From a virus, in IMG/VR virus record IMGVR_UViG_3300038954_000113, positions 1-26,473 of that record: 26,473 nt of DNA; one strand, 5' to 3'. A program made the position numbers and the translations under genes. Positions 1-18,198 of the stretch are shown piece by piece (position 1 is the first letter of the stretch; each line of letters begins with the position of its first letter). A model generated the notes under the pieces. The model was not told where the DNA came from. It saw only the letters and a program-made list of their open reading frames with translations, and ran no database searches.

Positions 1-1465
1 TATATTTTGCATGGATCGAAATAGTCAAGCCTGTAGTCCACTCTTTCAGCTTATTGTAGACAGCAGCACCGGCTTTGGCAATATCCACTTCATCGACAAC
101 AGCTAATATTGCACCAGCAAGCTCCCCATTATACCCCTGCTCAGAAGTCAAAGCTCTGTCTGCCTTGACAACACCTTTTGTCACTAGCAATTTTAGCGAT
201 TCATGGAATGAAGATTTTCCGCTGTTCTGAGGGCCGTACATGAATAAGTAAGGGAGTTTACAGAACGGCTGTTGAAACATGCAGGCTACCCAAGCCTTTA
301 GATAGTCTCCACCGTTCTTGATTCCCCAAGACTTGCACCAGTCTAGGGATTTGATGTACTCATCCAGATCAACTCCGCAATGATCCATCAGCTTGTCCCA
401 AGTAGGGTGTACTGGAGTCTCATCCTCAGACAAATCAACAGGAGAGTAGACAAATTGTGCTGCGTCTCTATTCCACACACGACCTCCAGGGTACTCTGGT
501 CGAAATGGATCTCGAATAACTTTCCAAGATTTGAATACGGCACTTCCAAGTATCGGGTCTGGCTTGGCGTACCCCTCTGAAACCAGGAACGATTTAATGT
601 TTTCTCGCGGGTGTGCTGTCCACTCTTTCTGGTCGTCGTAAACTACCCACGAATCAAACTTGCTGTCTGCTTTCAGCGCTCTGATTTTGTCGTCCAGATC
701 AGTCCAAACCTGCTCTTCTTCAATAATCTTATCAGAAGTTTCAGCAGTATTCTTTAGAAGCTTCTCCCATCCGCGAGTAGTCTTTACGAATTTGGGGAAA
801 TCACTTTGATTATCACCTCTTTCCTTTGGAATTCTCAACACAATCTTATCTTTTGCGTTAAGAGATAATGAAGGAGTCCTGCCAATTGCTTTCTCAGGTA
901 CTTTATCCTTCGCTTCTAACATCTTTAGAGCTTGAGATAAGTCCTCCACACTATCAAATAGATAGCCTTGCTTCTCTTCAGTGCCTTCAAATCCGCCAGC
1001 AGCCAAGCATATCTGCTTCAAAGTGGCCGGAAAGTTGTAGGTTGTATGAGTCCACTTACCTTGCTTATCCCACAGCGGATGCTCCTCTACCCCCTCACCA
1101 AAACGATAAACATCCCAAGCACCGTTTGGCCTTGGTCGCATGAAGCAATTTCCGATAAGTATGAAATCTTCCAGCACGAAGCAGTGAGTCTCTGGTACTG
1201 TACAACAGAACACTTCCTCACGTCCAGCAGGTTCGACACTTACAACTCTCCAGTAATGATGCTGACGATTCGTCGTGCTTGCCCATTGCTCTCGATGCGG
1301 AGTCAACAGGAAGAAATCTTTCGATAGGTCGGCAGCCTTCAAGATAATTGTGTACACTGGACTGTCAGGTTTGTAAGAGGTTGTCCCGGTGCGTGATTCA
1401 GTTACCTTGGAAGTTTCCACACCGAGAATGTGCACACTTGACGTACATGCTCGACGCTTATCTTG
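1..1465 (-). CDS. Primase-helicase, C-terminal part: intein C-terminus plus SF3 helicase (partial at window edge, -1 frame relative to the N-terminal part)
   Basis: This reading frame is open from 1465 to the left edge and continues the protein encoded at 1402-3126 after a -1 frame change near 1429. It first encodes the end of an intein (block F TVPETHCFVLEDF, then ILIGN followed by Cys at 1147). The C-extein begins CFMRPRPNGAWDVYRFG. Further on is a superfamily 3 helicase core. Walker A GPQNSGKSS lies near 209-236 and Walker B ILAVVDEVD near 90-116. They are followed by NKLKEWTTGLTISIHAKY, resembling the conserved region after Walker B in D5/P4-type phage helicases. The role would be hexameric unwinding at the fork, joined to the primase. 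There is no ATG with a Shine-Dalgarno site at the head of this frame, so it is best read as the broken or frameshifted rest of one gene. The true C-terminus lies outside the window. Confidence 0.85.
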
Positions 1466-2112
1466 TCAGTAGACCGAATGATACACGACCCCCTATCAGA
1501 CACGCAACCATCAGCAGCGAAGTATCCAGCCAGCCAACCGTACAAGTACGCCTTGTCATAGTGCAAAGGAACCAGTGACTTGAAGTGGTATGGAAGATTC
1601 CATACTTCCACTCCGCCGACAGATCGGTTGATTGGTCGTTGCGGGTGCTCAGCGAAATACTTCAACAGTTCGGCGTCTTTGGCACCAAACAAACTCAGTG
1701 AAGATGTGTTTCGCTCACCTCCATTAGTACCATCACCCCACACCAGCCCGTGTTGAATACCAACAACGCTTGGTGTATGATTGCACTGAGGCTTCGTCTG
1801 CACTAAGATGCGGCCTTTGGTCAAGTTCTTCGTCTCGACTTCCTCACGGTCACCGAAGTTTACTTTGGTCTTTCTATACCCATCACTTCGATACTTTGTG
1901 ACATACCAACGATGATCGCCAGTCGCTCGAATGTTCTTTCGTTGGTTCCGGTTCTCAATAGTTACATTAAATACTTCCTGCTCACCATACGACTTGAAAG
2001 GCGCGTTCACCCACTTGCCACGGGAGGTGATGATTTCTACATTATTTCCCGCTAATTCACCAATTGGTTTTACACCTTCTCTAGTGATTACCTTCGTATC
2101 AGCGCAAAGGCA
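1148..2112 (-). other. Intein with LAGLIDADG homing endonuclease domain, frameshifted
   Basis: The intein runs from Cys (codon 2112-2110, CLCADTKV, block A) to Asn (codon 1150-1148, ILIGN, block G), followed by Cys of the C-extein. Block B is seen as RATGDHRWYV with the TxxH pattern. Block F is TVPETHCFVLEDF. Two endonuclease motifs are visible: GIQHGLVWGDGT and LYGWLAGYFAADG. The span is 965 bp, one base short of 966 (322 codons), which matches the single frame break near 1429. The penultimate residue is Gly instead of the usual His, a variant tolerated in some inteins. Removing the intein joins GKPN to CFMRPRPNG, a continuous primase-helicase linker. The insertion point is between the primase and SF3 domains. 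Confidence 0.88.
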
Positions 2113-3126
2113 ATTCGGTTTACCTGGATCTGTATCAAGCGAGTTTGTATCAAACAAACCTCGCATTGGTGTGCCTCGCTCAGCCCACTCGTCAAACACT
2201 TGCTTAAGTCCAGTGGTGTGGCCCTGCCACAAGTAGTGGTCCTGCACCCACAAGGACGTATGACCAGTATTCTCTAAGTCCTCCAATATTTTCAGGTGCG
2301 TCTCATCAAGAGGGGTACGGGCATAAGCTTGAGTCATTTCATCAAGCTCATCGCCTTCGGTTGTACCATCGGGGGTCCATCCTTGGACCCTCACTTTGGA
2401 TCTGCCACCAGAGACAACTTCAATATGATCTCGCCAGTTCGGCGGAACAAGAGAGGATGGCAGAGGTTCTGTCGCCGGTTTAATTTGCTCAAAACCTCTG
2501 TTGTTGCTGTCGGCGTCAATATGATGTATCCACATCACACTGCCGAAGCAATCAACATCGGCATCTAAGTCCATCTTCATATACCTGCTAAGCAGGGGGA
2601 GAAGAGACCTAGCGATGGCTGAATGCTCATTATGATTATGGGTTTCTGGTGGGTCATCAAACCACACATAGATATGTCGGCCAGCGCCACGAGTTGATCG
2701 GTTAATTTCCAGCCAAGGGATGGTGAGCTTATCTAGCTCTTCGATCTTTTCTTGTGTGAGGGCGTTTGCAGCGTGGTGAAGAATTGAATCAAAGTCAAAA
2801 CCCACACCAATCGATCTGCGATTAACCCAATCCCACCACGTAGTGCCGATTGATTTCAGCCTATTCTCAATCACATATTTAATAGGCGGGTCACTATATG
2901 ATGGGTCAGACATCGCATTGTAAGGCCACCTCTGAGGGCCGAACACTTCCCCATCCTGTTCGTACATCTTACTGTCAGGGAGCGGGTTGCCCATCTTCTT
3001 ACATAATATCTGAGTCTCGAATCTTCGTGGATTCTCTCCCCATTTTCCAATTAGCTCCAGATTATTGTGCTGATGCAATAGCACATTCTCGTAATACTTT
3101 TTGTATGCCTCTGTTACAGTAGTCAT
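1402..3126 (-). CDS. Primase-helicase, N-terminal part: AEP-type primase domain plus intein N-terminal half
   Basis: I place the start at the ATG at 3126 because GGAGGAGG lies 2 bases upstream; an open extension to 3192 runs through the promoter and is not used. Numbered from this Met, the primase-polymerase-like (archaeo-eukaryotic primase) domain covers about residues 85-240. It shows GFDFDS (metal-binding DxD type, about 109-114), STRGAGRHIYVWF (about 144-156) and DCFGSVMWIHH (about 202-212). From Cys339 the protein turns into an intein (CLCADTKVITREG). The frame stops at 1402, inside the endonuclease domain, with residues unlike the family. The helicase half continues in the -1 frame (1-1465). 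The gene is transcribed leftward from the promoter at 3157-3188. Expected role: primer synthesis and fork unwinding as one polypeptide. As written, this frame alone would give a helicase-less product. Confidence 0.85.
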   Translation of the reverse strand: MTTVTEAYKKYYENVLLHQHNNLELIGKWGENPRRFETQILCKKMGNPLPDSKMYEQDGEVFGPQRWPYNAMSDPSYSDPPIKYVIENRLKSIGTTWWDWVNRRSIGVGFDFDSILHHAANALTQEKIEELDKLTIPWLEINRSTRGAGRHIYVWFDDPPETHNHNEHSAIARSLLPLLSRYMKMDLDADVDCFGSVMWIHHIDADSNNRGFEQIKPATEPLPSSLVPPNWRDHIEVVSGGRSKVRVQGWTPDGTTEGDELDEMTQAYARTPLDETHLKILEDLENTGHTSLWVQDHYLWQGHTTGLKQVFDEWAERGTPMRGLFDTNSLDTDPGKPNCLCADTKVITREGVKPIGELAGNNVEIITSRGKWVNAPFKSYGEQEVFNVTIENRNQRKNIRATGDHRWYVTKYRSDGYRKTKVNFGDREEVETKNLTKGRILVQTKPQCNHTPSVVGIQHGLVWGDGTNGGERNTSSLSLFGAKDAELLKYFAEHPQRPINRSVGGVEVWNLPYHFKSLVPLHYDKAYLYGWLAGYFAADGCVSDRGSCIIRSTDKISVEHVRQVCTFSVWKLPR

Positions 3127-3156
3127 ATCCTCCTCCATCTTGAAGTTGTCTATAGT

Positions 3157-3188
3157 ATTATACTGCACAAAACTCAGAAAAGTGTCAA
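3157..3188 (-). promoter_or_regulatory. Leftward promoter of the primase-helicase gene
   Basis: On the minus strand TTGACA (3188-3183) is followed by a perfect TATAAT (3162-3157). The spacer is 20 bp, longer than the 17-bp sigma70 optimum. The -10 and initiation region, from TGCAG through ATAGACAA (3167-3146), is identical over 22 bp to the rightward promoter near 3655-3676. Transcription would start about 20-25 bases before the Shine-Dalgarno site of the primase. Confidence 0.65.
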
Positions 3189-3354
3189 ACAATTTTGCAA
3201 ACCCCTCAAAGAAAGGGGCGGAAAGTGGTTTTCAAACTCCTGCCTGCAGAAATTTCCAGAAAAATATGTTTCGTCGTAACTCCTTACCCCGTAAGGACTT
3301 AGCTTGCCCTGCCACCAGGCGGAGGTATAAACTCAAACTCCGTCGTCATTATGA

Positions 3355-3409
3355 GGGGTAAGTAACACTACAGAGTGGTGCATACTACCCACCAAGTGTT
3401 ACACACCCC
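3355..3409. repeat. Nested inverted repeat at the centre of the large dyad
   Basis: GTAACACT (3362-3369) pairs with AGTGTTAC (3395-3402). Outside a 2-base internal loop, GGGGT (3355-3359) pairs with ACCCC (3405-3409). The centre of this palindrome is within about 5 bp of the centre of the 3291-3483 inverted repeat, so the two form one nested symmetric structure. Confidence 0.8.
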
Positions 3410-3420
3410 CCCAAAAGGCC

Positions 3421-3446
3421 GCAGGAGTTTTGAGCCAAACTCCTGC
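3421..3446. repeat. Perfect 10-bp hairpin made of two opposed iterons
   Basis: GCAGGAGTTT (3421-3430) and AAACTCCTGC (3437-3446) are perfect reverse complements around the 6-base loop TGAGCC. The hairpin abuts the right arm of the large inverted repeat. No T-run follows it, so it is unlikely to be an ordinary intrinsic terminator. Confidence 0.85.
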
Positions 3447-3515
3447 TACCTCCGCCTGGTGGCAGGGCAAGCTAAGTTCTTACAGAGAAAGGACTTATGT
3501 AAAATGAAAATGAGC

Positions 3516-3614
3516 AGGCAGGAGGCAGGAGTTAAACAAAAAGTCCTAAGAGAAATGTTGCAAAATGCAAGATTTGCTATGGGAAGGTCTTGAGAAAACT
3601 CCTGCCTCCTGCCT
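3516..3614. repeat. Inverted repeat with 18-bp perfect arms
   Basis: AGGCAGGAGGCAGGAGTT (3516-3533) is the exact reverse complement of 3597-3614. The arms contain the iteron core plus an extra internal CCTGCCT repeat. The spacer of 63 bp is AT-rich and holds no gene. The right arm ends about 20 bp before the -35 region of the rightward promoter. Confidence 0.88.
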
Positions 3615-3633
3615 CCAAAATAATTTTGCCGGT

Positions 3634-3665
3634 TTGCTACATTTTGCGATTTCATGCAGTATAAT
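3634..3665 (+). promoter_or_regulatory. Rightward promoter of the ParB-like gene
   Basis: TATAAT (3660-3665) sits in a core, TGCAG through ATAGACAA (3655-3676), identical to that of the leftward promoter. A TTGCTA (3634-3639) stands at the same 20-bp distance as TTGACA in the leftward copy. The transcript would begin shortly before the GAGAGG ribosome site at 3678-3682 and read the gene at 3688. Confidence 0.65.
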
Positions 3666-3687
3666 ACTATAGACAAGAGAGGTGACT

Positions 3688-4620
3688 ATGAGCGACCAAA
3701 CAGAATTGAAGATCAGAGAGATCCAGAAGCCAAGACTAGCGTTGCGGCCAGTCCGTCGCCAAGCCGCTGAGTACGTGGAGTTGGTGAATTCGATTAGGAA
3801 AGACGGTGTCCTGCAACCGATTTTGGTTCGGCCAAAAGATGATGGTTACGAACTAGTAGATGGCTGGCACCGGCTTGAAGCTGGTAAAGAAGCTGGCTTG
3901 TCTATGATTCCTGTAGTAATAAAGGAGATGTCTGACAGGGAAGTTTTGGTGACTCAGGTAAAGTGCAACTCGATCCGACCTGTCACTAATAGATTTGAGT
4001 ACGCAAAACGCTTAAAACTATTGATGGAAGAGGGGTATACTCTCAACCAACTTTCGGTTTTGATCGACAAATCCCCTGAATGGATCAGAGACCAGTTGCA
4101 GCTTAACCGATTAGATGAGTCTCTACGGTCCTATATGACCAACAATGAGATCCCGATGAAGTCGGCTCTTGCACTGTCAAATCTTCCTGCAGAGCTACAG
4201 CACAAGTTTATTGATGATGCTCTGAAGATGCCAGCCAAAGAGTTCGAAGCCCGAGCAAAATCTGCTCTTCGAGACTTCAAGGCTTACATGATTGACAGGA
4301 GACAAGAGGAAATAAAGAGAGGTGGTTTGGAACCTCGTTTAAGAGGTCAAGCAGTTTTGCGAAAAGAAGCATTTGACTTAGAGCGAGGTCGTGATATAAT
4401 TGAAAGAGATGAGCTTGAGACAGCAGAGGAAGGCTGGGAAGCCTGCATGGCTTGGCTATTCCGATTGGACAAAGATGACATAGAATCTAGAAAGAAAGGA
4501 GAAGCATTAAAAGAGCGTGACAAAATAAGGTATAACAACGAAGAATGGCGTAAAGTGAATCAGAAAATTTTAGAAAAGTATTTAGAAAAGTATTCGGAGA
4601 AACCTAACAATGTCGAATAA
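3688..4620 (+). CDS. ParB/Srx-fold nuclease-like DNA-binding protein
   Basis: 310 residues; ATG chosen because GAGAGG lies 5 bases upstream. The N-terminal third has the ParB-type signature: DGVLQPILVRPKDDGYELVDGWHRLEAGKEAG. G-W-H-R replaces the common G-E-R-R/H-R box. A helix-turn-helix-like stretch follows (GYTLNQLSVLIDKSPEWIRD, about residues 113-132), which in ParB relatives recognises DNA. The C-terminal third is highly charged and helical (ALRDFKAYMIDRRQEEIKR onward), a possible oligomerisation or partner-binding region. No ParA partner is visible nearby. The gene is the first one downstream of the repeat-rich divergent region, so it may bind those repeats in replication or control; that is inference. 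Confidence 0.75.
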   Translation: MSDQTELKIREIQKPRLALRPVRRQAAEYVELVNSIRKDGVLQPILVRPKDDGYELVDGWHRLEAGKEAGLSMIPVVIKEMSDREVLVTQVKCNSIRPVTNRFEYAKRLKLLMEEGYTLNQLSVLIDKSPEWIRDQLQLNRLDESLRSYMTNNEIPMKSALALSNLPAELQHKFIDDALKMPAKEFEARAKSALRDFKAYMIDRRQEEIKRGGLEPRLRGQAVLRKEAFDLERGRDIIERDELETAEEGWEACMAWLFRLDKDDIESRKKGEALKERDKIRYNNEEWRKVNQKILEKYLEKYSEKPNNVE

Positions 4621-18088: not shown

Positions 18089-18160
18089 TGCGGAGTAGCT
18101 CAACGGTAGAGCGCTCGACTGTTAATCGAGTGGTTGCTGGTTCAAGTCCAGCCTCCGCAG
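18089..18160 (+). tRNA. tRNA-Asn (GTT anticodon)
   Basis: 72-base cloverleaf. Acceptor TGCGGAG/CTCCGCA with discriminator G, D-stem GCTC/GAGC, anticodon stem CTCGA/TCGAG with loop CTGTTAA (anticodon GTT), and T-arm GCTGG TTCAAGT CCAGC. All stems pair fully. CCA is not encoded, so it must be added by a nucleotidyltransferase. Confidence 0.95.
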
Positions 18161-18198
18161 CTAATTGTGTAGAAGTTTACAACATTTTGGAGATTATT

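Follow-up and report, generated by a model that had tools for sequence, protein, structure and literature searches.

The origins of phages that use archaeo-eukaryotic primase (AEP)-SF3 helicases are, to our knowledge, barely known, and we know of no demonstrated binding partner for the stem-loop of pRN1. The locus considered here, a repeat-rich non-coding gap between a primase-helicase gene and a ParB-like gene, raises the question of whether such a gap is a start site of replication, a partition site, or a pair of promoters. It lies in a window that spans the full length (26,473 bp; 55.6% A+T) of an IMG/VR virus record, a phage fragment encoding a primase-helicase, a ParB-like protein, an SNF2-type helicase, a family A DNA polymerase, and PhoH. 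Judging from the sequence, the gap is probably a bidirectional replication origin between divergent promoters, with a core (3516 to 3614) that would be read by the AEP primase-SF3 helicase.

Repeats and promoter-like elements in the gap

A first-pass annotation of the locus had described about 460 non-coding bases (3193 to 3654) holding a 37-bp inverted repeat, a smaller palindrome centered on the same point, a 10-bp hairpin, an 18-bp inverted repeat, and five copies of AAACTCCTGC. All of these features were found, with small corrections (Table 1). The region is indeed non-coding, but the true gap, which runs from one start codon to the other (3127 to 3687), is wider than had been noted. The 37-bp repeat (3291-3327/3447-3483) pairs at 36 of 37 positions, the co-centered palindrome is represented by two nested inverted repeats (3335-3358/3407-3430 and 3355-3369/3395-3409), the hairpin has arms at 3421-3430 and 3437-3446, and the 18-bp repeat is perfect. 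The count of AAACTCCTGC was nearly right: four copies are exact (3234, plus strand; 3421, minus; 3437, plus; 3596, plus), but the fifth (3525, minus) has one mismatch. A better repeat unit is CTCCTGCC, which has five copies in the gap and none elsewhere in the window.

The inverted repeats are not due to chance, since shuffled sequences score far lower, the folding energy is extreme, and strong repeats are confined to this locus. The best inverted-repeat score of the gap is 36, versus at most 9 in 8 shuffles; its single-strand DNA fold reaches -108.8 kcal/mol, versus -55 +/- 4.8 for shuffles (z, -11.3); and the only two inverted repeats in the window with a score of at least 16 and a span of at most 420 both fall in the gap. 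Rfam matched only a tRNA (a tRNA-Asn gene lies at 18089-18161), and no intrinsic terminators were found between 3000 and 3800.

The first reading overlooked a 22-bp perfect outer inverted repeat (3146-3167/3655-3676), in which two copies of TGCAGTATAATACTATAGACAA point outward and stand a few bases away from the start codons: ATG at 3126 on the minus strand, preceded by GGAGGAGG, for the primase-helicase, and ATG at 3688, preceded by GAGAGGTG, for the ParB-like protein. By eye, these elements read as TTGNNA-N20-TATAAT, a spacing taken from the sequence, and a sigma-70 scan did not call them at standard spacing. Among the relatives, the two elements are identical or nearly so within each phage, essentially unique in the genomes searched, and different between phages; their identity might stem from gene conversion of the arms or from a regulator common to both. 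The gap is also a divergent promoter region, an aspect that the first-pass annotation had downplayed.

Table 1. Features of the gap and its flanks (window coordinates)
Feature	Position	Strand	Description
AEP primase/SF3 helicase gene	1..3126	-	Candidate initiator; intein-split, truncated by window edge
Whole non-coding gap	3127..3687	.	561 bases, primase-helicase start to ParB-like start; from sequence
Outer promoter-like element, toward primase gene	3146..3167	-	TGCAGTATAATACTATAGACAA; identical to partner
Lone word	3237..3244	+	CTCCTGCC
Large inverted repeat, left arm	3277..3327	+	51 nt, 90%; inner 37 nt 36/37
Nested inverted repeat	3335-3358/3407-3430		75% paired
Nested inner arms	3355..3369 with 3395..3409	+	87%
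10-bp hairpin	3421..3446	+	GCAGGAGTTT-6-AAACTCCTGC
Large inverted repeat, right arm	3447..3497	+	51 nt, 90%; terminates in GGACTTA
Origin core (putative), left word pair	3516..3533	-	AGGCAGGAGGCAGGAGTT, two CTCCTGCC on minus strand
Core spacer	3534..3596	.	63 bp, 65% A+T; contains CTATGGGAAGG at 3577-3587
Origin core (putative), right word pair	3597..3614	+	AACTCCTGCCTCCTGCCT
Outer promoter-like element, toward ParB-like gene	3655..3676	+	Identical to left copy
ParB-like gene	3688..4620	+	ParB_N + HTH_ParB; syntenic partner

Flanking genes and conservation of the layout

The gene to the left of the gap joins an archaeo-eukaryotic primase to a helicase of the DUF5906/SF3 type; full-length relatives of its product (alignment A1) share the AEP signature FDFD and STxGxGxH together with a Walker A helicase of family DUF5906. 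A profile search with the primase matched the C-terminal region (CTR) of the NrS-1 primase (6k9c/6k9e; E = 2.7e-8). The AlphaFold2 model of the primase of relative G001 is of moderate confidence (mean pLDDT, 71; pTM, 0.42), with unreliable long-range domain placement; a fold search with it returned the NrS-1 CTR first (E = 2.6e-11), followed by AsfvPrimPol, SaPI PriRep1 with double-stranded DNA, and poxvirus D5/E5. Going by profile and predicted fold, the nearest solved relative of the helicase part is the primase-polymerase of phage NrS-1. The window primase is interrupted by an intein that begins CLCADTKV, contains the LAGLIDADG-like stretch GWLAGYFAADG, and ends FILIGN ahead of CFMRP. Because the frames of the two primase ORFs (1402-3138 and 2-1435) differ, the intein carries a frameshift or an assembly error; an open version is present in G002, and the intein is absent from G001, G012, G010, and G004. 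On the other side of the gap, the ParB-like protein has an N-terminal PF02195 domain (1.2e-16) and an HTH domain, PF17762 (1.9e-7). The larger genomes G005 and G007 (L034, L035, L040-L043) carry several additional ParB-like genes at a great distance from this region.

Relatives were collected with the polymerase as the query, which gave 12, and then as 13 records with the primase and ParB-like genes back to back; a wider scan yielded 87 primase loci. All of these contigs are metagenomic, and most are fragments. A DNA-level search of phage records for relatives of the window found none, the short-pattern method with ParB as the query found none in viral contigs, and a search of phages and plasmids with the G001 primase found no cultured relative; the distant G006 primase gave short helicase-domain matches only in the same search. 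Seven primase relatives sit in metagenome-assembled genomes (MAGs), most of them labeled Planctomycetota, which hints at a host. Three (L211-L213) are on long contigs (60 to 444 kb) of Planctomycetota MAGs and could be prophages or a lead to the host.

The ParB-like gene lies divergently upstream of the primase in 69 of the 87 loci, and many of the loci without the divergent pair end at contig edges; the primase-SF3 helicase adjoins the gap in all relatives that carry it. Conservation of the repeats had been set beforehand as a test. The architecture is kept in dozens of relatives and the sequence is not: the gap DNA can be aligned in short stretches only, and yet the best inverted repeat beats every shuffle in all but a few of 70 distinct gaps (about 150 to 1300 bp). 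In six records, every strong inverted repeat of the record falls in the primase/ParB-like gap. In the compact gaps of some relatives (about 160 to 230 bp), the inverted repeat falls on the promoter pair, and thus the conserved symmetry there could be promoter related. Compact gaps L154-L169 and L179 have a small central palindrome, for example, TTTCCCAGAAATGTTGGGAAA or TTTCAGGAATTGCTGAAA, the two arms of which apparently covary from phage to phage. Motifs resembling ACTTAC and CTATAGGG occur near the core in many gaps but not in the majority, and so were not taken as defining.

Paired words, duplicated cores, and GC skew

In the nearer relatives, the recurrent element of the gap is a core in which a tandem pair of words is followed by a spacer and then by the same word pair in inverted orientation. 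The spacer measures 62 to 76 bp in 16 cores with different words, which were picked by eye. A mechanical count of inverted 8-mer pairs found them 60 to 90 bp apart in 14 to 15 of the 16 nearest gaps, versus about 2 expected, and at 30 to 70 bp in the distant, more compact gaps. The spacers are 57 to 74% A+T, only moderately above the genome (window value given above). The word itself varies: it is CTCCTGCC in the window, of CTCCG types in G001, G002, L132, L133, and L139, CTCCCC in G010, L135, and L141, ATCCACTC in G004, L142, L143, and L148, ATCCGC in G012/G003, and ACTCACTC in G014. It is virtually confined to the gap in G000, G001, G002, and G014, where the counts inside and outside the gap are 5 and 0 for CTCCTGCC, 7 and 0 for AAACTCCG, 6 and 0 for CGGAGGTA, and 13 and 0 for ACTCACTC.

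Two relatives have a second complete core more than 40 kb away, G012 at 332-475 and G004 at about 2742-2837, the latter in the opposite orientation. These second cores sit in stretches without primase or ParB genes, and the core is therefore unlikely to be only an operator of that operon. Degenerate repeats of the form CATAATCGG-tACgACCGG were seen near contig ends in G012 (L078; 1-1100) and G004 (L088; about 2200-3700), where the stretches are apparently non-coding and enclose the second core, and also in G001 (L067; 1-2000) and G010 (68 to 76 kb). G012 (L078) additionally has at 1757 a third near copy of its divergent promoter element, with 3 mismatches, shortly upstream of an ORF (1789-2283) and on the same side as its second core.

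A change in GC skew at the gap had been proposed as a check. The raw skew minimum of the window (3456) was rejected as origin evidence: gene orientation turns there too, and the minimum is gone after correction. For the correction, skew was taken at third codon positions of non-overlapping long ORFs, gene-strand means were removed, and the remainder was summed along the genome. The corrected cumulative minimum falls at the gene boundary that flanks the gap in G001 (1 of 49 boundaries), G010 (1 of 91), and G003/G012 (1 of 122; 81), that is, in 3 independent relatives of 12, and elsewhere in the others; 0.21 such coincidences would be expected for 12 independent genomes, and the probability of 3 or more is ~0.001. 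Permutation gave no significance for the skew range of G001 (P = 0.70) or of G010 (P = 0.30), in which the location alone is informative; the amplitude is significant only in G003/G012 and in G004, and the minimum of G004 lies elsewhere. The strand-corrected skew thus turns at the gap in three relatives, but not in the window itself, and this turning point, although weak in amplitude, supports a bidirectional origin, short of proof.

Candidate initiator, alternatives, and known origins

Which protein would read the word can be approached by comparing relatives. The C-terminal domains of SaPI Rep and Cch2 bind iterons (PMC7581432). In the primases of the present group, an invariant GN near the C terminus falls in a beta-hairpin predicted by the AlphaFold2 model of G001, and the residues before it are (K/R)xNQ in the CTCCG phages, GNV in the CTCCC phages, mostly GGQ in the ATCCA phages, and KNV in the ATCCG phages. 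The three CTCCC phages form no well-supported clade in trees of the remaining primase or of ParB. The primase wing appears to track the word class, an association drawn from 8 to 17 sequences that is a lead, not a demonstration: 2 of 910 primase columns are strictly diagnostic of the word, one of them within the C-terminal hairpin, and ParB also has two. Mean domain identity, compared between same-word and different-word phages, did not separate the primase and ParB as the word reader.

A working model can be outlined as follows. The AEP primase-SF3 helicase would bind the words through its C-terminal winged-helix domain, and two of its rings would assemble face to face across the core. The rings would open the core spacer, possibly aided by the large inverted repeat (3277 to 3497), which could form a cruciform; the primase-helicase would then prime both forks, and the phage family A polymerase would extend the primers. 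The identical divergent promoters may tie expression of the replication operons to the same site.

The first-pass annotation had judged the symmetry and iterons typical of origins or partition sites rather than of simple promoters. The origin half of this judgment is supported by an architecture conserved in dozens of relatives and by the skew that turns at the gap in three; promoters are nevertheless present. On a rival account, the gap is a divergent promoter/operator only, its symmetry arising from a shared promoter and the sites of an autoregulator such as the ParB-like protein, with no replication start. In favor of this account are the two identical promoter-like elements, unique in each genome and diverging between phages, and the compact relatives, in which the inverted repeat amounts to hardly more than the promoter pair. 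We consider this account unlikely, since the core, with its fixed 62- to 76-bp spacing, sits between the promoters, and a mere operator would leave unexplained both the second core far from the operon in two relatives and the turn of skew at the gap. The promoter/operator and origin readings are themselves compatible.

It is improbable that the gap is instead a partition (centromere) site for the ParB-like protein. The repeats are clustered, and a ParB_N + HTH_ParB gene adjoins the gap in nearly all relatives, as a ParB-like gene does the repeats of ParABS loci; unlike at those loci, no ParA and no palindromic parS-like site were found here. The word lacks palindromic symmetry, there is no one dyad that most gaps share (a shared ParB dyad is weak and split among groups), and a ParA of the AAA_31 family (PF13614) was found in 0 of the 12 records, which may be incomplete, and in 14 of 14 control genomes. 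A T7-style origin, in which transcription from a promoter followed by an A+T-rich stretch primes replication, is highly improbable. The ParB-sense strand of the gaps is enriched in TATAGGG/ATAGGGG (15 of 65 gaps, versus about 2), a motif reminiscent of how T7 promoters begin, but a putatively self-priming AEP primase adjoins the gap, and the single-subunit RNA polymerase (PF00940), which the same search detects in T7, occurs in 0 of the 12 possibly incomplete records. Because of that possible incompleteness, the absence of ParA and of the RNA polymerase is moderate evidence.

If the gap is an origin, as we favor, its closest parallels are found among elements with related initiators. The initiator of SaPI and SCCmec Cch2 is a self-loading helicase or primase-helicase of the SF3/D5 type, whose C-terminal domain recognizes short repeats located close to the gene that encodes it; two hexamers have been proposed at these origins (PMC7581432). 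Here too the candidate initiator gene adjoins the repeats, PriRep1 is among the fold matches, and short repeated words flank a more A+T-rich stretch. However, the SaPI/Cch2 origin lies downstream of the helicase gene, whereas the gap lies upstream, between divergent promoters and beside a ParB-like gene, and its tandem words recur in inverted form on the far side of a fixed spacer, with a large nested inverted repeat in addition. In pRN1, whose ORF904 joins an AEP primase, an SF3 helicase, and a winged helix, a large stem-loop is needed for replication (PMC4234260). As in pRN1 and in the stem-loop proposed for phage BIP-1, the large inverted repeat is kept in structure, not in sequence; the pRN1 stem-loop, however, is downstream of the gene and lacks iterons. 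By analogy, the gap would work like the SaPI/Cch2 and pRN1 origins while being a member of neither class as defined, because it precedes the gene and has iterons as well as a large stem-loop. In NrS-1, an 8-nt recognition sequence that occurs twice in the middle of the genome, on opposite strands, has been suggested as the origin (PMC7102993), and the motif TTTGGTTA acts as a primer template site (PMC8718748). The gap differs in having multicopy tandem words with fixed spacing rather than TTTGGTTA twice, and the window phage also has a family A polymerase, whereas in NrS-1 the primase-polymerase doubles as the replicative polymerase. The P4 alpha initiator likewise joins primase, helicase, and winged-helix binding of repeats (reviewed in PMC4234260), but its primase is of the Toprim type, in contrast to the AEP primase of the candidate here.

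We tentatively suggest, as a conjecture that may well prove wrong, that these gaps form a deeply conserved class of origins in which spacing and symmetry stay fixed, while closely related phages have repeatedly exchanged the word along with the primase-helicase wing. If this is true, the exchanged word and wing would provide every phage with an origin of its own, a kind of incompatibility code, and some genomes carry a further copy of the core away from the operon. The layout of the gap is compact and recurs in dozens of natural variants, which makes initiator-word specificity readable by comparing relatives, and it provides a sequence signature for locating origins in a phage group that has no cultured member in the collections searched.
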